From positions 62,001 to 126,000 of the forward strand of contig JAECQY010000004.1 in assembly GCA_016000045.1 (NCBI GenBank): a stretch of 64,000 nucleotides of DNA, read 5' to 3'. The notes below the pieces were generated by a model that ran no database searches, was not told where the DNA came from, and worked only from the letters and a program-made list of their open reading frames with translations. This document shows, one piece after another, positions 42,155 through 59,052 of this stretch; position 1 is the stretch's first letter; the number at the start of each line of letters is the position of its first letter. The position numbers and the translations under genes were made by a program. Source of the stretch: Myxococcaceae bacterium (GTDB lineage Bacteria > Myxococcota > UBA727 > JABDBI01).

Positions 42155-44724
42155 GGATTTTTCGCCAAAGAATCTCCAACACGGGAGTAGATCACTTGAC
42201 TCTCCCTTTGGCCAAAAGATTCTCCATCGCGAGCAAACAGAGTCACGGTGTTGGCTCCTGGCTTCAACTTGACCATCTGATCAATCACAATCTCTTTTTT
42301 GCCTTCTGAAGCTTTGTAGAGTATCTTTTGGTCTCCAACGTAAACATACACATCTTTCAGATTTGGTTTCCCTTGAACTTGGGCTCGAAGCCGGTAGATA
42401 TCTTGACTCGTTGTTCGCACCGAATCGAGCCATCGCACCTGAGGGGGTGTCTTTTTGACCCATTGAGTCGATTCTAGATTCAAATCCTCAAGCCAATACT
42501 CGCCGCTTGCAGCATCAAATATTTGAAGCTGTAAAGCCGATCTGGCATCAGCAGATGCCTCAGAATGAAAAGCAAGAACCACTTCTTTCATTTGTCCTGG
42601 CTTTAAAACTCCTAATTTGGCACGACCTTCTTCGATAAAGAGATCCGATTTCTTTTTATTTTTCAGCAAAACCATGGGTTCCATCGAAGCTCCTAAACCC
42701 GTGTTGCGAACCAGGACCTTGACTTTCGATCTGGAGTTCTCTTTCGTCGGTTGAATCTGATAACTAAAAGCCAAGATGGGTTTTGGCAATCCTTGGATAT
42801 CGATTGGAACATTCGTGCAACGGTGGGTCTGCACATGATTCGTATGAAGGCAGACTTTCATCGCATCATGCCTAGGTAAAACATCTTTAGGGATCGAAAT
42901 TTCAGATTGCCACCTTTTACTCTGCCCCACATCAAGCTTTCCAAAAATAAACTCCCTCTCTGCAAACAAAGAGGTTGATGACTTCGAGATTCCATAAACT
43001 TGATACGCAGGCTCTTTTCCAAGATTTTTAGCCTCTAAGGTAATCCGCAATACCGAACCTGCTTTGGCTTTGGAGGCGCCGATGACTCGCAGCATCACAT
43101 TCGCGGACGAAGGAACAGAAGGCGGCTCCCAATTCACGCCTAATTTCGCAAGGTCGGATTGGATGCGCTTACTCTCCTCCAATTGAACTTCGGCTACGAC
43201 AGATTTTGCAGAACTTAAAAGAGACGTTCGGCTAGCTCCTTCCGCACTCAAAAGCAAACGTTTTGCCAGCGATATCTCAAAATCTTCATGAAACTGGGAA
43301 GAAACGGCGCGCCTTTGTGCCTCTTCAAGCCCAAGTCTTTGTGTCAAATAAGTCAAAGTATAGGCGGGTTGACTCTGACGAACACGAGTTTTGTTGTCCA
43401 AGTGAGAATCGAGATCCTCCTCTCGTATCCTCGCCAATGGGAACAGAATCACGTGACGCTTGTTTTCGAGATAAGCCGGTTGGAGCAGAATATCGGGTGT
43501 AATCCCAACCGATTGAATGCTTTCATCACCGGGTGTCAAGTACTGAGCAATCGTCAACTTTAGAGATGATTGATCCGGAAAATCATACAGCATCTGAACA
43601 GAGCCTTTTCCGAAAGTTTGCTCTCCTAAAATAAGAGCTCGATTGCGATTTTTTAAAGCTCCCGCGACAATTTCGGATGCAGACGCAGAACCAGAATTAA
43701 CCAAAACAACCATTGGAAATTCCGTTTTAGAAGAACCAGAGCTCGCTTTTTCTTCCTGCCGTTGAAACGCTTTCGAGCCCTGCGTGACCACAACCACGCC
43801 GCCATCTAAAAACAGATCCGATACCGCAACCGACTCATTCAATAAGCCACCCGGATTATTGCGAAAATCCAGAATGAGCCCTTTGATCGATCCCAATGCG
43901 TCAATGGCGGATTTTAGATCCGAAGCCGTATTGCTATGAAAGGCTTTGATCTTCACGTACCCAATCTTCTTGTCTATTTTATGAGAGGATATCGAATCGA
44001 CTTTGATCCTATCTCGAATGATCGTGACTCTGCGATGGCTAGACTCTCCATGCCCTTGTACCAGCAAAGTGACCGCCGTTCCTGGTTGGCCTCTGAGTTT
44101 ATCAACCGCTTCATCCAGGGCAAGATTTACCGTTGAACTTTCATCGATTCGCAAGATGCGATCCAATGCTTTAAGTCCGGCTCGATCGGCCGGAGTTCCC
44201 TCCAGAGGACTAATGACAGAAAGCACACCGTCTCGAAGACCAACAACAATTCCCAAACCTCCAAACTCACCTTTGGTGGAGAGCTTCATTTCTTTGGAAA
44301 ATTTGGGTTCCAGAAGCACCGAATGCGGATCGAGTCGGCTTAAACTTCCGTTGACGGCTGCATACTCGACCTCTGCTCGATCCACTGATTTCGGAAGGCT
44401 CGGCTCAATAAATCGAAAAATATCTCGCATGAAGAAACTGAGATCCCAAAGCGATTGAATCAAATCCGTCTTCCATGTTTCTGTCCGATCCACGATCTGA
44501 ATTTCGATTTCATTCAAAGAAAGTTCTCGATACATGAATTCAGGAATCTCGCGTTGCATGGCTTCCAGCGCACCCAGCAGCATTTTTTTAGGTTCAATGC
44601 GCGTCGGCTGTACGTATTGTTCCTTAATCTGCAGCATCGCTCGGTTAAAGATAGGCAACTCGGTGTGAGAATCGTGGGCGGGGCCCGCAAGAAACAAAAG
44701 AGCCCACAAAAAGAGGGACTGCAT
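42151..44724 (-). CDS. S41-family C-terminal processing protease with long C-terminal extension
   Basis: 857 residues. Signal peptide (L-F-L-W-A-L-L-F-L-A-G), a PDZ domain (about 130-215, G-G-L-G-I-V-V-G), S41 domain with N-N-P-G-G-L-L, catalytic Ser in N-S-G-S-A-S-A-S-E and Lys in F-G-K-G-S-V-Q. Beyond about 480 lies an extension with Ig-like, CARDB-type repeats (V-L-R-I-T-L-E-A-K-N-L-G-K-E, S-K-V-K-V-L-V-R-N-T-G-L) absent from standard CtpA/Prc. Periplasmic processing enzyme; substrate unknown. ATG at 44724 overlaps the mlaD stop; GTG at 44727 possible. Confidence 0.9.
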   Translation of the reverse strand: MQSLFLWALLFLAGPAHDSHTELPIFNRAMLQIKEQYVQPTRIEPKKMLLGALEAMQREIPEFMYRELSLNEIEIQIVDRTETWKTDLIQSLWDLSFFMRDIFRFIEPSLPKSVDRAEVEYAAVNGSLSRLDPHSVLLEPKFSKEMKLSTKGEFGGLGIVVGLRDGVLSVISPLEGTPADRAGLKALDRILRIDESSTVNLALDEAVDKLRGQPGTAVTLLVQGHGESSHRRVTIIRDRIKVDSISSHKIDKKIGYVKIKAFHSNTASDLKSAIDALGSIKGLILDFRNNPGGLLNESVAVSDLFLDGGVVVVTQGSKAFQRQEEKASSGSSKTEFPMVVLVNSGSASASEIVAGALKNRNRALILGEQTFGKGSVQMLYDFPDQSSLKLTIAQYLTPGDESIQSVGITPDILLQPAYLENKRHVILFPLARIREEDLDSHLDNKTRVRQSQPAYTLTYLTQRLGLEEAQRRAVSSQFHEDFEISLAKRLLLSAEGASRTSLLSSAKSVVAEVQLEESKRIQSDLAKLGVNWEPPSVPSSANVMLRVIGASKAKAGSVLRITLEAKNLGKEPAYQVYGISKSSTSLFAEREFIFGKLDVGQSKRWQSEISIPKDVLPRHDAMKVCLHTNHVQTHRCTNVPIDIQGLPKPILAFSYQIQPTKENSRSKVKVLVRNTGLGASMEPMVLLKNKKKSDLFIEEGRAKLGVLKPGQMKEVVLAFHSEASADARSALQLQIFDAASGEYWLEDLNLESTQWVKKTPPQVRWLDSVRTTSQDIYRLRAQVQGKPNLKDVYVYVGDQKILYKASEGKKEIVIDQMVKLKPGANTVTLFARDGESFGQRESQVIYSRVGDSLAKNP

Positions 44725-45683
44725 CACGGCTGACGCTCCACCATCAATTCTTTCTGACGAAGCGAGTAGCGAATTAAACCTTTCAATATCTCATTTCGTC
44801 GAACGTTTCCAAGAAGCAGTTTCATTTCGTCGTAGAGAGAAGGATCATTCAGCAAACGACCCATCGTTCCTTGCCCTTCTTTGGTACCCTGAGCCATCGC
44901 ACTCAGATTATCTAGAAGCTCAGCACCTTTGGGATCGAAAGCCAAAGAGTGAATCAAGCTAGGACCTCTTTGTACCGAGCGTAAGATTTGATCGATCCCC
45001 GCAATCGAGTTTTCAAAATCGTCCGCCGCTTGCTTGCTGAAGATAAGACGATTGAGCAAACCGGGTCCCGTTTCAACGGCTTTCATGATGCTCTCAAGCG
45101 ATTTAGCAATCGCCACAAGCGATTGGTCACCTCCTTGGGCCGTAAAGCTCTTCATGAAGTCTTGGACCAGCTGAACGGCTTCCGTGACATGCTGGAGGAC
45201 ATCTTCGGCTTTTTCCATCGCTGTACTCAAGTCTAAGGATTCCATCGTCTTGACCGTATCTTGGTCCACCAGCTCAGGCCTACCAGGACTTCCCAAGCTC
45301 ATGTTGATTATTTTATCACCCAACAAACCCTTGCTATCAATTCGAGCGATTGAATCGGTTCGAAGCCATGGAAGTTTGTTGTAGGGAAGTCGTATCACGA
45401 CCTTGATCTTGCCAAAGCTCTGCGCCGATTGTTTGTAGAAACCTGGAAATCCGATTTGATCGACGTACCCGACCAAGACCCCTGCAATCATGACGTCCGC
45501 TCCCACCCCAAGCCCAGAAACATTCTCAAAATAGGCATTGATGTGCGCAGACCGATCAAACAAGTGATTTTCTTTTCCAATCAAGAAGATGGCCACCATG
45601 GTGATAACGATGCCCATACAAACAAAGGCCCCGAGCAGCACATCATTATTTCGACGTTTTGTAACAGCCATATTTTTGCTCAC
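44724..45683 (-). CDS. MlaD/MCE-family lipid transport protein
   Basis: 319 residues: an N-terminal membrane helix (V-L-L-G-A-F-V-C-M-G-I-V-I-T-M-V), an MCE domain (N-V-S-G-L-G-V-G-A-D-V-M-I-A-G-V-L-V-G in pieces), then a long helical tail. MCE proteins form rings that carry lipids across the periplasm with an MlaFE ABC unit. GTG at 45683 overlaps the mlaF stop (GTGA); an ATG lies four codons on. The permease MlaE is not in the cluster. Confidence 0.87.
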   Translation of the reverse strand: MSKNMAVTKRRNNDVLLGAFVCMGIVITMVAIFLIGKENHLFDRSAHINAYFENVSGLGVGADVMIAGVLVGYVDQIGFPGFYKQSAQSFGKIKVVIRLPYNKLPWLRTDSIARIDSKGLLGDKIINMSLGSPGRPELVDQDTVKTMESLDLSTAMEKAEDVLQHVTEAVQLVQDFMKSFTAQGGDQSLVAIAKSLESIMKAVETGPGLLNRLIFSKQAADDFENSIAGIDQILRSVQRGPSLIHSLAFDPKGAELLDNLSAMAQGTKEGQGTMGRLLNDPSLYDEMKLLLGNVRRNEILKGLIRYSLRQKELMVERQP

Positions 45684-46453
45684 GAAGCCAATATATCAGT
45701 TAAAGCTGGGTTCGCAGTTAAAAATCCACGAACAAAAGAATCCTCGTGCCGCAGAAGCTCTGGATAGGTTCCATGAGCAAAAACACGTCCTCGATAAAAG
45801 AATGCGACTCGTGTGGCTAAACGTTGAACCGCTGGCATATCGTGCGTCACCATCAACACAGTGGATTTTAGTTTTTCTTGCAGATCGATAATCAGATCAA
45901 CAATCCGAACTGTGTTGATCGGATCTAAGCCTGCGGTAGGTTCATCGTAGAGAACGACTTCGGGATCGGTGGCAATCGCTCGAGCAAGACCTACGCGCTT
46001 TTTCATCCCTCCTGAAAGTTCCGAAGGCATTTTATCCATCGATTCTTGTAAACCAACCAGCTCCAACTTATGCTGTACCCGATCTCGAATCTCGCCAGCG
46101 GATAAGCCGTGCCCATGAAGCCCGTAAGCCACGTTTTCAAATACCGACATAGAGTCAAAAAGTGCCGCTCCTTGAAAAACCATCGCGATTCGCTTGCGGA
46201 CCGGCAAGAACTGCTCATCTCGAGTGAACGATGCCAAATCGATCCCATCAAAAAAAATGGATCCGGCATCCGGCTCAATCAAGCCAATCAACATCTTGAT
46301 CGTGACGGTTTTTCCTGTTCCAGATGGGCCGATAATGCAGAGACGATCCTCTCGCTGAATATCCAGCGAGAAATTCTGGCAAACTACTTGCTGCCCAAAG
46401 GCCTTATCAACGTGTTGGTAGGAAATATAGCTCACGGCTACTTTTCCTGCCAT
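45680..46453 (-). CDS. MlaF-type ABC transporter ATPase
   Basis: 257-residue ATP-binding subunit: Walker A G-P-S-G-T-G-K-T, Q-loop V-F-Q-G-A-A-L-F-D-S-M (the L-F-D-S-M-S-V form is typical of the Mla/Mkl subfamily), signature L-S-G-G-M-K-K-R-V, Walker B V-V-L-Y-D-E-P-T and H-loop V-T-H-D-M. Powers phospholipid transport with MlaE and MlaD. ATG at 46453; it overlaps sspB by 16 bp. TTG at 46459 is an alternative. Confidence 0.92.
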   Translation of the reverse strand: MAGKVAVSYISYQHVDKAFGQQVVCQNFSLDIQREDRLCIIGPSGTGKTVTIKMLIGLIEPDAGSIFFDGIDLASFTRDEQFLPVRKRIAMVFQGAALFDSMSVFENVAYGLHGHGLSAGEIRDRVQHKLELVGLQESMDKMPSELSGGMKKRVGLARAIATDPEVVLYDEPTAGLDPINTVRIVDLIIDLQEKLKSTVLMVTHDMPAVQRLATRVAFFYRGRVFAHGTYPELLRHEDSFVRGFLTANPALTDILAS

Positions 46454-46767
46454 ACGCAATCACCGACCCTAAAGACAGAGATCCATGGTACCATGCAGTA
46501 AAAGAAACCTTCATCAAACGACAAAGTTGCACTAACGCCTGCTTCATCGTAACCGAAATCAGGTAGATTGTAGCGATGCGAATAGTTGAGACTAACGCAC
46601 TCAAGATTCATCAAACGCGAAGGCAGCGATACTCCAGGCTGCGTCGTATCCAAGGAAATCATGACAACTCCCCCCTCTTCAAGACCTTTTCGAAAAGCGT
46701 CCAGTTTTTGCAAACTCGGCCTTTGCTTTTTACCCTGGTCTTTGAACAAGGGAATGACATTCGACAT
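46438..46767 (-). CDS. sspB: SspB-like ClpXP adaptor
   Basis: 109 residues with the SspB pattern V-V-M-I-S-L-D-T-T-Q-P-G-V-S-L-P, then G-V-S-A-T-L-S-F and the conserved F-Y-C-M-V-P-W-I-S-V-F. SspB binds ssrA-tagged proteins and delivers them to ClpXP. Shorter than E. coli SspB (165), lacking the long C-terminal ClpX-binding tail, as in several delta-like bacteria. Next to rpoZ and mlaF. Confidence 0.75.
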   Translation of the reverse strand: MSNVIPLFKDQGKKQRPSLQKLDAFRKGLEEGGVVMISLDTTQPGVSLPSRLMNLECVSLNYSHRYNLPDFGYDEAGVSATLSFDEGFFYCMVPWISVFRVGDCVWQEK

Positions 46768-46770
46768 GTT

Positions 46771-47034
46771 TCAAACCTGAACGCTACGGAATTCTTCGTG
46801 CTGCCGATCGAGCTCACACAGCGAAGTTTCTAAAACCTCCCGAATCGACCGATCGAAACGGACCTTTTCAGCGGCCACTTCACGAAGCGCTGTAACCTGT
46901 TCGTTGTTTTTGGAAGCATCCACCAAAGAATGGCTCCCTTTCATCAGCTGGCGAGCCCGAGCCGAAGCCAACAAAACAAGTGCAAAACGATTTTCTACGA
47001 CTTTAAGACAATCTTCAACGGTTACACGGGCCAT
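46771..47034 (-). CDS. rpoZ: RNA polymerase omega subunit
   Basis: 87 residues: [10 protein letters not shown] at the N-terminus, [16 protein letters not shown], and V-T-A-L-R-E-V-A-A. Omega stabilises beta-prime in the holoenzyme. ATG at 47034, 3 bp before sspB. Confidence 0.95.
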
Positions 47035-47055
47035 AAAGACCTCTTGTAGAGGATC

Positions 47056-47718
47056 TTAACGAACCAGTCTAGGCCTTAAAGCAACTTCCCCGCTTTCTAA
47101 AACGACCTCGAAACGAACCGACTTGACCTGATGTTGTTTCATCAGCTCTTCTCGAGCACGATCGAGAGTCTCTGCAAATGTTTCAAAGTCACTGGGTTCG
47201 TTTCCAAATTTTTTATGAGCTTCTCGAAATTCTTCGTACAAAGCTCTTAAATTTCTTCCCTCAAAAGCACGCGGTAAGGGTTGAACTTGCCCCAACTCTG
47301 GGTGAAAACTATGTGCTTCATGAACCATTTGTCTAGCTACCACGGGTTCGTATCTCAAAGAACGAAAAGACTTGAGACGGTGAATACCAGGGTCAGCATT
47401 GTCAGACAAAGTTCCAGCCAATTCATTGAAAGCCTGGATCACCCCAGATAGCGGATCATTCTCTTTCGATGCAAGCCTTCTCTCATACTTGCCGCGAGCT
47501 AAATCTCGCAAAGCATCTGTCACCTCATCCGATCGCAGCTCCTGTGTCTTTGGGACAGCCACAACAATCGCGACCAATGCTAACAATGCCCCTAAGTCAA
47601 CACAAAACCGAGCGATTGCTGCTTGAGGAGCAACTTGAAAAACAATCAAAAAGCCCACACAAGCCGCCAGCATCGAAACGGCTGAAACCCAACCTGTAAA
47701 GACTTTTAGATTTTTCAT
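47056..47718 (-). CDS. HAMP-domain membrane protein with MXAN_5187-type C-terminus
   Basis: 220 residues: two membrane helices (about 8-30 and 34-54), a HAMP-like segment (L-R-D-L-A-R-G-K-Y-E ... D-P-L-S-G-V-I-Q-A-F-N-E-L), and a C-terminal domain (L-Y-E-E-F-R-E-A-H-K-K ... V-K-S-V-R-F-E-V-V-L-E-S-G-E-V-A-L) like the family named after M. xanthus MXAN_5187. No kinase, methyl-acceptor or cyclase output domain follows. It sits 8 bp below the sigma factor gene. Function unknown. Confidence 0.65.
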   Translation of the reverse strand: MKNLKVFTGWVSAVSMLAACVGFLIVFQVAPQAAIARFCVDLGALLALVAIVVAVPKTQELRSDEVTDALRDLARGKYERRLASKENDPLSGVIQAFNELAGTLSDNADPGIHRLKSFRSLRYEPVVARQMVHEAHSFHPELGQVQPLPRAFEGRNLRALYEEFREAHKKFGNEPSDFETFAETLDRAREELMKQHQVKSVRFEVVLESGEVALRPRLVR

Positions 47719-47726
47719 CTTAGCCC

Positions 47727-48674
47727 CTACTGTACTGAATCTTCGCTAAATAGCCAAGACAGTTGTGTATTTGGGCCTAAGGTATCGATGACGTGCCTGC
47801 GAAAAGCCTTCTTGAGTCGATCAGCCAGTTGCCCCATTCTCTGCTTTGAAACGCCAAATCGCTTGCCCAATTCAACCAGATTGAAGGGCTCATGAGCGAT
47901 CAAATGTTCTTGCCAAATCGCTAAGTCTCTTGGATCACTCAAGCTACGTTCAAAGGTTTCAATCAGCTGATGAATGGTCTTCTGGATTTCTCTTCGCGCA
48001 GTCTGTGATTCAGGATTTTCTTCCTGTGAGAAAAGCACTTCATCTTGGATCGCCGAAAGGCTGGTCTCTTTGCTTTCCAGTCGTGCTAATACCGACTCAA
48101 CTTCAGCCAAATCTTCATTCAGGCGCTCTGCAATTCGTTCCGGCGTGGGCTCTAAGCCTTTCGCAACCAACTCTCTGCGTACCTCCGGGAGTGCAAAATA
48201 GATTCTTCTCCCCGAACGCGTATTGCCCGTATGAATCAAGCGAGAGTTGGTCAGCAAAAAACGACTTAATTGCGCCTTCATCCAAAAAACAGCGTAGGTC
48301 CCAAATCGAGTATTTTGATCCGGATCCCACTTTGTTGCAGCAATGCTCATCCCGGCTAAAGCTTCCTGAATCAAATCCATTCGACTCGTCCAAGAGCGCC
48401 GATATTGATGAGCAATTTTGATCGCAAGGCGCATATTGTGTGAAACAAGCTTCTTGGCTGCTTCTTGATCGCGAACATCTCGCACTCTCAAGCCTAAGGT
48501 ACGTTCTTCTTCGTCAGAAAGCCTGGAAATACGAGTCGCTTGGCGAACAAAAGTGGCGTAGAGATCACCGCCAGATTCGGCCCCTCGGACCCATTCTCCT
48601 TGAGCATTTGGAAGCGCTACGCTAGAACGCTTGATTAATTGATTGGGCTCGTTCTTGGTCTTTGGGTGCGACAT
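47727..48674 (-). CDS. RNA polymerase sigma-32-like factor
   Basis: 315 residues: region 1.2-like L-S-D-E-E-E-R-T-L, region 2 (M-D-L-I-Q-E-A-L-A-G-M, F-G-T-Y-A-V-F-W-M-K-A-Q), an RpoH-box-like S-G-R-R-I-Y-F-A-L after region 2, and region 4 (F-N-L-V-E-L-G-K-R-F-G-V-S-K-Q-R-M-G-Q-L). This suits the heat-shock group, so control of clpB or lon is plausible but not shown. ATG at 48674; the frame continues upstream to 48722 inside the HD gene, overlapping it by 53 bp. Confidence 0.85.
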   Translation of the reverse strand: MSHPKTKNEPNQLIKRSSVALPNAQGEWVRGAESGGDLYATFVRQATRISRLSDEEERTLGLRVRDVRDQEAAKKLVSHNMRLAIKIAHQYRRSWTSRMDLIQEALAGMSIAATKWDPDQNTRFGTYAVFWMKAQLSRFLLTNSRLIHTGNTRSGRRIYFALPEVRRELVAKGLEPTPERIAERLNEDLAEVESVLARLESKETSLSAIQDEVLFSQEENPESQTARREIQKTIHQLIETFERSLSDPRDLAIWQEHLIAHEPFNLVELGKRFGVSKQRMGQLADRLKKAFRRHVIDTLGPNTQLSWLFSEDSVQ

Positions 48675-49800
48675 AAATTCGGTTAAAGTGTACTGGTTTT
48701 TGGTAACGTTGATACAGCTCACTATACTGGTTCAGAGGAACTAAATCTCCGCGCTTGGTTTGAACGTAAAGCGGCTGACTGGAGCCTTCGAAATACTTCG
48801 AAATGGCATTTTTGGATTCAGACGCTATAAAGTCAATTGATTGGGAAGCTAATTGATGGCAGATCGCCTGATGTTCTTCCGGGGTTCGTTCGTCTGAGAT
48901 CAACCGATAGGGCTTTCTTTGCACGATTCGTTCAGCCCATACGTTTTGACTGCTTTTCAAATGCATCCATACGTCGGTATCATCGATCTGAATGAATTTT
49001 TCAAGGTCAACCGGAATCACAAACTCATCTGGGCAGTCTTCGAAATAGCGCACAAGCATTTTCTCGAAAATCACAGGCGTATGATGCAGGTAAACACTGG
49101 CAAACATATGATAACGAGACAATAGAAAGTCCTCAAAACTATACAATGCTTTTGAGCGAATCCCTAAATAAACCTGATTTTCTTGATAAACGGGTACGAG
49201 ATTGCTGATCAGCCAATCTGCGTCAAATTTTCCGTAATTCACTCCGCAGTAAAAGCTGTCTCTTTGCAGATAATCCATGCGATCGGCATCGCATTCCGAA
49301 CTCACCATCTGCTGCAAGATGGGTTGAAAATCGATGCCTCCGATTTTAAAATCGAGCGAAATAATCTCATCCGGGCCGATTTCAGCACACTCAAACTCTT
49401 TCCTGAGACAAAGGCTAAAGGAAGAATTTTGAATCAACTGCCGAGTGATGTCTTCGTGATTGTTCCCCGAAGACAAGCGCGATTCCAATGAATGCGAGAG
49501 AGGAGTATGCCCCAAGTCGTGCAGCAATACGGCAAGGCGTAGGGCTTGCCGCATCCGCGCTCGTTCTTGAATTTCTACTTCAATCTGAGAAAAAACGTGA
49601 TCAAAAATACGAGTGGCTAAATGCATCGCGCCCAAGCTATGGCTGTAGCGGGAATGCGTTGCTCCTGGAAAAGCCAAATCAGCAAAGCCTAACTGGCGAA
49701 TATTTCTCAATCGTTGAAAAGCCGGGTGATCGATCAGGCGAAGTTCACAGGGCTCGATTGGAATAGATCCATGGATGGAGTCGCGAATTTGTACGGACAT
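48622..49800 (-). CDS. HD-domain phosphohydrolase (dNTPase-like)
   Basis: 392 residues. N-terminal I-R-D-S-I-H-G-S-I-P, L-R-N-I-R-Q-L-G, T-H-S-R-Y-S-H-S-L-G, the HD metal site L-L-H-D-L-G-H-T-P-L-S-H, and later S-E-C-D-A-D-R-M-D-Y-L with a second Asp. This matches the COG1078/SAMHD1-like group of dNTP triphosphohydrolases. ATG at 49800. Probably forms one transcript with the sigma factor downstream, whose start it overlaps. Confidence 0.88.
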   Translation of the reverse strand: MSVQIRDSIHGSIPIEPCELRLIDHPAFQRLRNIRQLGFADLAFPGATHSRYSHSLGAMHLATRIFDHVFSQIEVEIQERARMRQALRLAVLLHDLGHTPLSHSLESRLSSGNNHEDITRQLIQNSSFSLCLRKEFECAEIGPDEIISLDFKIGGIDFQPILQQMVSSECDADRMDYLQRDSFYCGVNYGKFDADWLISNLVPVYQENQVYLGIRSKALYSFEDFLLSRYHMFASVYLHHTPVIFEKMLVRYFEDCPDEFVIPVDLEKFIQIDDTDVWMHLKSSQNVWAERIVQRKPYRLISDERTPEEHQAICHQLASQSIDFIASESKNAISKYFEGSSQPLYVQTKRGDLVPLNQYSELYQRYQKPVHFNRIYVAPKDQERAQSINQAF

Positions 49801-57585: not shown

Positions 57586-57956
57586 TGGTGGAGGCGGCGG
57601 GAATTGAACCCGCGTCCGAAAAATCGCCCCAAAAAACTTCTACACGCTTAGTCTTTACTTGTTATCACTCCGAACTTAGCCTAAAGACCGGCGGTTCATC
57701 GCGCTCTTGGTTATCTCCTCGCCATTCTTTAAACCCCAAGAAAAAAAGAAAGGCCAGCCTGATCGGTGCATCGACCCTCACCGCTCAGACGAGGCAGCAA
57801 GGCGATGGAGCTTCCTATCGGTTATTAAGCGAAGGCAGCTACGGATGCAACATTATTGTTGGCATTTTTGTTTTTTTGAGCCTTTTTGACGCGGTGACTC
57901 AAACCCACGGCGTGCTATTTTTCGTTCTTATCCTCCGTCGAAACCATATCGCCCCC
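57586..57956 (-). ncRNA. ssrA: tmRNA (ssrA)
   Basis: Transfer-messenger RNA that frees stalled ribosomes. The 5' end GGGGGCG (57956 down) pairs with CGCCTCC before the 3' ACCA at 57586, with the G-U pair at position 3 that directs alanine charging. The T-arm GCGGGTTCAATTCCCGC, the upstream TTTCGACGG and the GACTAAGCGTGTAGAA match the tmRNA consensus. The tag frame (57822-57863) reads A-N-N-N-V-A-S-V-A-A-F-A then TAATAA. 371 nt. The 5' 42 nt overlap bamD. No clear terminator follows. Confidence 0.95.
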
Positions 57957-58631
57957 AAGAGGCTCCACTTCCCCAAGGTACCTCAATCGCTCTGCTTTAG
58001 CAAGCTTCGACGCTTCCGTATCTGGATAAGATTCGACAATGTTCTTTAATCGGGCTCGCACCGCATTCCATTTTTGACGCTTGGCATAATGACGCGCAAT
58101 GGCCAAGTCACGCTGAGCCAATTGTTCTCGAATACCCATTTGCATACGCTCAGCCTCACCCGCGTATTGACCTTCAGGATATTGGCTTAGGTAGCGTCGA
58201 ATCGCGTCCAGCGCTTCTTGCGTGGCAGTTTGATCTTTGAGATAGCTCTTTGGAAAAAGAAAGAAATTCTTAGGAACGGCTTTGTAATAGCACTGTGCCA
58301 CTTGGAACCAAGCGTAAGGATTCATTTCATGACGTGGATGAAATCGAAGATAGAAATCGTAAGCATCGGCCGCTTCCAGCCATTTCTCCTGTGAAAAATA
58401 GGTATCCGCTAGGCGCAGATCACTCAGTGCCGCGTATTGGGAATAAGGGTACTTGCTGCGAACTTCTTCAAAGCCTCGAATCGCTTCTTCGTAGGATTCG
58501 TTTGCCAGGGCCTTCTCAGCTTGCTCATAGCAGATCTTGGCATTATCCAGATAAACATCGGATTTTTGAGCCAGCTTACCGGTGGCACAAGACATCAAAA
58601 GCAGCGGTAAAAAAAGACGAAAAACAAACAT
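57915..58631 (-). CDS. bamD: Outer-membrane assembly lipoprotein BamD
   Basis: TPR lipoprotein of the Bam complex. 238 residues: lipobox L-L-L-M-S-C near residue 15, TPR repeats (E-A-I-R-G-F-E-E-V, Y-P-Y-S-Q-Y-A), P-Y-A-W-F-Q-V-A-Q-C-Y-Y, and the usual middle and C-terminal helices. The last 13 codons, D-M-V-S-T-E-D-K-N-E-K after G-G, are the 5' end of tmRNA, and the stop TAG lies inside that RNA. ATG at 58631 chosen; a TTG at 58670 is possible. Confidence 0.9.
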   Translation of the reverse strand: MFVFRLFLPLLLMSCATGKLAQKSDVYLDNAKICYEQAEKALANESYEEAIRGFEEVRSKYPYSQYAALSDLRLADTYFSQEKWLEAADAYDFYLRFHPRHEMNPYAWFQVAQCYYKAVPKNFFLFPKSYLKDQTATQEALDAIRRYLSQYPEGQYAGEAERMQMGIREQLAQRDLAIARHYAKRQKWNAVRARLKNIVESYPDTEASKLAKAERLRYLGEVEPLGGDMVSTEDKNEK

Positions 58632-58644
58632 GAGAATCGAATTC

Positions 58645-59052
58645 TTAAAGACGAAACCAACCTTGGTCAATGGCCAAGCAGCTCAAGAGCACTCCTAAGC
58701 CCAAGCAAGCCAATAAAGCATCCATCAAAATCGCTATCAGGAAAGGCCAAAAAAACCGCTTTGCAGTGACGATAATTGTTTCAATTTGAGCAAAATAAAT
58801 ACGATAAAATCGATATGTAATCGTTTCTAAATATCGATTAATCAAAAAGAATAAAAAAATTGAGCCAGCGCAAGAAAAGACACTGATTGCAATTCCAAGA
58901 TTGATTGGGTAAGGTAGCTGATCATCTAATATGCCCACTGCCACTGAAATTGCAACCGCGTTGATACAGAGCATTAAAGTTAGCATTCCACTTAAGAAAC
59001 TCGAACGAATTTTTCCAACCTCTGAAGCCGTAACATTATGCAAATATTCCAT
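58645..59052 (-). CDS. Four-helix membrane protein, unknown
   Basis: 135 residues with four hydrophobic helices (near 20-40, 48-73, 95-110 and 112-128). No family recognised. AT-rich compared with its neighbours. Ends 14 bp before bamD. Its ATG at 59052 is only 16 bp from the divergent AAA gene. Confidence 0.65.
   Translation of the reverse strand: MEYLHNVTASEVGKIRSSFLSGMLTLMLCINAVAISVAVGILDDQLPYPINLGIAISVFSCAGSIFLFFLINRYLETITYRFYRIYFAQIETIIVTAKRFFWPFLIAILMDALLACLGLGVLLSCLAIDQGWFRL

Follow-up and report, generated by a model that had tools for sequence, protein, structure and literature searches.

A bamD reading frame that terminates inside the tmRNA gene in two species of a small-genome Myxococcota genus

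The 3' end of bamD and the 5' end of the tmRNA gene (ssrA) were found to share nucleotides on the minus strand of the window (the whole 64,000-nt stretch of DNA analyzed). The bamD frame contained no stop codon before tmRNA and terminated at a TAG 42 nt inside the tmRNA 5' end, so that the shared 42 nt comprised 13 sense codons (GGDMVSTEDKNEK) followed by TAG (Table 1). The overlap is real and conserved in the genus, and it is most likely tolerated rather than designed. The initial annotation had described bamD as running into tmRNA and stopping within it, and ARAGORN, Rfam and the end of the open reading frame at 57915 reproduced its coordinates exactly. Its assignment of the final 14 bamD codons (including the stop) to the tmRNA acceptor and D-domain was likewise borne out, and Rfam alignment added the first strand of helix 2.

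Table 1. Coordinates of the bamD-tmRNA locus in the window.
Feature	Position	Strand	Details
bamD	57915..58631	-	238 aa from ATG at 58631; longest ORF from TTG at 58670
tmRNA gene (ssrA)	57586..57956	-	One-piece, CCA encoded; ARAGORN; Rfam RF00023, 190.4 bits, E 4e-77, model 1-374
Overlap	57915..57956	-	bamD side: 13 final sense codons plus stop; tmRNA side: 5' strand of the acceptor stem, D-domain and initial part of helix 2
bamD TAG stop inside tmRNA	57915..57917	-	tmRNAs of G004 and G007 (sister genera) read TGG at this site
Junction linker GEVEPL	57957..57974	-	Separates the conserved end of BamD from tmRNA; no alignment with relatives possible
tmRNA tag frame	57822..57863	-	ANNNVASVAAFA and two stops; ARAGORN, coding part at 94-135 of gene
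Candidate -10 box TACCTT	57975..57980	-	Putative tmRNA promoter inside bamD (weak); position-weight scan
Candidate -35 box TTGCTA	57998..58003	-	Spacer 17; position-weight scan; congener TTGCCA, spacer 17

The protein was identified as BamD by TIGR03302 (E 1.6e-50, 171.9 bits against a cut-off of 81.4) and Pfam YfiO, and an LMSC lipobox (lipoprotein signal with Cys) was read in its sequence. The RNA matched RF00023 over its full length above the gathering score, carried a tRNA-like domain with acceptor stem, T-arm and CCA end, and encoded a tag frame with a hydrophobic end; the tag of the congener was ANNNVASEAAYA. A recognized protein family thus passes the mature 5' end of a tmRNA on the same strand. 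Assembly error was ruled out by the identical arrangement in the separately assembled congener, and a chance open frame was ruled out in the case of bamD, whose own coding frame is the one that runs in. Selection of the stop codon at a cost to tmRNA was unsupported: the site lies opposite A/A in the internal region of helix 2, and no Rfam alignment penalty mark fell on it in either species of the genus. A candidate bamD terminator at 57963-57951 was rejected; the terminator-like hairpin falls within the acceptor strand, and its T run is poor.

The source genome (1.32 Mb in 11 contigs, estimated 99.6% complete) belongs to a small-genome family within Myxococcota, a phylum that also includes genomes of 9-13 Mb. 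In the congener (G001, a separately assembled MAG; contig JAHFEF010000001), the overlap was found with the same frame and the same stop at +42, and with the tail GGDLGSTEDENKK; BamD was 61% identical between the two species. G001 was the sole congener available for comparison, and evidence at the level of the genus comprises two genomes. Among the 16 genomes of the order examined, bamD adjoined tmRNA in no other. When 57 Myxococcota tmRNA loci flanked upstream by 400 nt or more of sequence were compared, the window and G001 were the only ones in which a sense frame entering tmRNA looked convincingly coding; the other long frames entering tmRNAs of the phylum occurred mostly in high-GC genomes, and most looked antisense by GC phase. 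A frame-0 stop at +42 was confined to the two overlap species among 54 tmRNAs. The overlap is one evolutionary event (one genus, two genomes), and with one event only, maintenance by selection is inseparable from inheritance.

In two sister genera (G004 and G006), BamD ended in ...QEDT and ...LSHS, respectively, about 15-20 codons earlier. The initial annotation had held that a conserved upstream bamD stop in relatives, together with a promoter inside bamD and no read-through, would count against its reading; stops do lie earlier in other genera, but in bamD genes that do not adjoin tmRNA, and the comparison therefore tells against that reading only by half. In G004, bamD and tmRNA lay 1.9 kb apart, with a gene for a 620-aa protein between them (L073:7313-9172, minus strand) that matched no Pfam family and was not seen at the other loci examined. 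Deletion of this gene was considered as the origin of the overlap; given its restriction to G004 among those loci, it may instead be an insertion in that genome. A murI-like gene (Asp/Glu racemase family) directly preceded bamD in G001 and G004 and was missing upstream of bamD in the window (58631-59052). Viral contigs were also scanned for relatives, and none was found.

The part of BamD encoded within tmRNA (residues 226-238) lies beyond the recognizable fold. Solved BamD structures matched residues 7-210 of the window protein and none further C-terminal; in a predicted model (3-sequence alignment, mean pLDDT 79.7), the last helix ended at 219 and residues 222-238 had pLDDT <50, so the 13 tmRNA-encoded residues are predicted to be disordered. 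Between the window species and G001, third codon positions differed in 0 of 13 tail codons versus 130 of 224 (58%) in the rest of bamD (P ~1e-5). All four substitutions in the tail were nonsynonymous, and in the Rfam alignment each fell in the D-loop or an internal loop or, within helix 2, turned a G-U pair into A-U; none of the four conflicts with the fold of tmRNA. Because the tail is predicted to be disordered, shows no third-position differences and changes its amino acid at every substitution, it reads as a passenger for which RNA structure sets the sequence and the protein follows. The earlier proposal that tmRNA structure constrains the BamD tail is supported by the lack of third-position differences, by the nonsynonymous nature of all four changes and by their agreement with the tmRNA fold.

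Since the bamD stop lies inside tmRNA, a complete bamD mRNA must enter tmRNA. The tmRNA 5' end is made by RNase P (PMC3985003), and in both species the cleavage site falls exactly between two bamD codons. RNase P cutting of a bamD-tmRNA co-transcript would consequently leave a non-stop bamD mRNA encoding an otherwise complete BamD; how frequent and how important such cutting is we infer rather than observe. The initial annotation had reasoned that tmRNA must either be released by RNase P from a bamD transcript or have its own promoter in bamD. That was reasonable, but the two options are not exclusive, and its main consequence, the non-stop message, was missed.

A promoter of its own, located within bamD, is probable for tmRNA, and more firmly so for G001 than for the window. 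In both species, the top-scoring sigma70-like match immediately before the tmRNA 5' end occupied homologous bamD codons (TTGCYA-17-TAC(A/C)(C/T)T). The window site (TTGCTA-17-TACCTT) scored 5.9, a value reached by 12.5% of shuffles, and the G001 site (TTGCCA-17-TACACT) scored 10.9, reached by 0 of 200 shuffles. No promoter-like site was present at the homologous codons of outgroup bamD (G004, G006). For scale, approximately 42% of the tmRNA loci examined had a sigma70-like site just upstream at shuffle p ≤0.05. In Pseudomonas aeruginosa, the ssrA transcription start lies 60 nt 5' of the RNase P cleavage site (PMC5870498). Of the two options in the initial annotation, an own promoter is thus favored, short of proof, by a promoter-like site that is strong in G001 and weak in the window.

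Production of tmRNA only by excision from the bamD transcript, with no promoter of its own, would fit the weak score in the window species, the generic promoter scan, which returned no sigma70 site upstream of the window tmRNA (the candidate fell below threshold), and a 9/12 promoter-like site found by that scan just upstream of bamD (58670-58641). It is nonetheless considered unlikely. The strong site in G001 stands at homologous codons and is absent from outgroup bamD, and tmRNAs are as a rule abundant and transcribed from a promoter of their own.

SmpB was not found in the source genome by TIGR00086, by an SmpB protein from the family or by a four-member alignment, the assembly being in 11 contigs, such that a gap is possible. 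It was present in G001 and most of the family. ArfB was also not found in the source genome, where only two weak matches occurred, in longer open frames that were taken as release factors; sucD was not found there either. The sucC-sucD-smpB genes of G001 and G004 were replaced by other genes at the syntenic place in the source genome (G000:C4 ~44000-49000, L135), where the adjacent ribBA-ribH-nusB-dnaJ-S1 block was kept (gene names in both blocks are our own, read from the sequences). G001 has both SmpB and ArfB as well as the overlap, so the overlap is older than the loss of these proteins. Sixteen bacteria have been listed as apparently without SmpB (PMC4131195), so that its apparent lack is itself a known kind of anomaly. 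The apparent absence of SmpB and ArfB here adds a candidate tmRNA without its usual partner.

These absences could be taken to mean that, with SmpB gone, tmRNA is a relic in decay and has lost its importance, so that an overlap with it is tolerated. The disappearance of the sucCD-smpB block from its conserved place, together with the absence of ArfB, would suit such a history. Against it, the window tmRNA scores like those of relatives (190 vs 194 bits), its tag frame is intact, and the overlap in G001 predates the loss; decay of this kind is judged very unlikely. A programmed feedback was also weighed, in which RNase P maturation of tmRNA makes bamD non-stop, trans-translation tags BamD for degradation as a matter of routine, and saturation of rescue raises the BamD level, as for ArfA. 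Cleavage exactly between codons in both species would serve it, as would the predicted retention of the whole folded domain in truncated BamD; ArfA offers a precedent (PMC3985003), and the same logic has been proposed for Carsonella smpB/ssrA (PMC4131195). However, trans-translation may fail in the window genome, apparently without SmpB and ArfB, and the overlap persists there; the arrangement reflects a single event, and nothing seen in the protein tail suggests selection. Such feedback is accordingly regarded as improbable. Improbable, too, is the proposition that tmRNA maturation forms a built-in BamD switch. Each transcript would then give BamD ended at its stop codon, or else tmRNA together with a non-stop bamD mRNA that tmRNA itself resolves; in the window species, with no detectable SmpB or ArfB, tmRNA would do so by an unknown route. 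If the switch were true, outer-membrane assembly would be tied to ribosome-rescue load.

The account we prefer, and hold to be reasonably probable as a whole, combines ancestral stop loss, an own tmRNA promoter, finishing by RNase P and a tolerated overlap. In the ancestor of the genus, bamD would have lost its own stop next to ssrA, and the frame would then have crossed ~7 junction codons and 13 tmRNA codons to the TAG, with no visible cost to the RNA. The tmRNA would be transcribed mainly, and probably, from a promoter in the last bamD codons, its 5' end being finished by RNase P. Each complete bamD mRNA would include the tmRNA 5' portion at a minimum and, probably, the entire tmRNA. A ribosome that reached the stop of this co-transcript would release BamD with a disordered 13-residue tail; if RNase P cut before that, the message would end in a complete codon without a stop and become a substrate for trans-translation. 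We infer that the overlap arose by accident during genome reduction and is tolerated, and that it is not a dedicated switch. The genome size of 1.32 Mb and the loss of murI, sucCD and smpB from the conserved gene order are consistent with reduction, and the case shows how, under genome reduction, a protein's tail can come to be written by an RNA structure.

The arrangement is a rare one of an already reported kind; the gene and the lineage are new. A survey of 115,660 t(m)RNA genes counted 250 overlaps by upstream same-strand protein genes (Table 4 of PMC4131195), and the leading overlap families represent few evolutionary events in close genome groups (PMC4131195). In half of the strains of Carsonella ruddii, smpB/ssrA has the same geometry, and the feedback it implies has been pointed out (Hudson, Lau and Williams 2014, PMC4131195); that paper cites Mao et al. 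2009 for the overlap. As in Carsonella, an upstream same-strand coding sequence enters the tmRNA 5' end in a reduced genome, maturation is expected to yield a non-stop mRNA, and the RNA dictates the C-terminal residues. The cases differ in the gene, which here is bamD in place of smpB, in the host, here from a Myxococcota lineage with genomes of 1.3-1.8 Mb, and in the extent of overlap, which is identical in both bamD species and variable in Carsonella. Overlaps of coding sequences with tRNA genes, such as the FtsW/RodA family gene running into tRNA-Ile-CAT (44 Helicobacter cases; PMC4131195), share the geometry, the expected RNase P outcome and the single event per close group. Those leading cases involve tRNA, whereas the RNA here is itself responsible for rescue of the message that its maturation would sever. 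Escherichia coli arfA is similar in that a processed stop-less mRNA gives a functional truncated protein subject to trans-translation (PMC3985003), and it differs in its RNase III hairpin and demonstrated regulation, the step predicted here being a cut by RNase P. A search of the available literature for further cases of genes overlapping tmRNA, bamD included, returned no paper other than on Carsonella.

At this locus, a conserved protein gene and a ribosome-rescue RNA share nucleotides, and one transcript cannot obviously serve both. The genus provides a second lineage, outside Carsonella, in which to ask whether tmRNA maturation creates non-stop mRNA in cells. Two further observations were made on tmRNA among the relatives. 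Very small genomes occur in the same family (G003, 0.3 Mb in one contig, and G005, 0.5 Mb); G003 had no BamD or SmpB above threshold, and its tmRNA was shortened (301 nt). A second, weaker tmRNA match (51 bits; G008:C46:218636-218922) lay 5 kb downstream of the main tmRNA in G008 and is possibly a fragment left by an integrated element.
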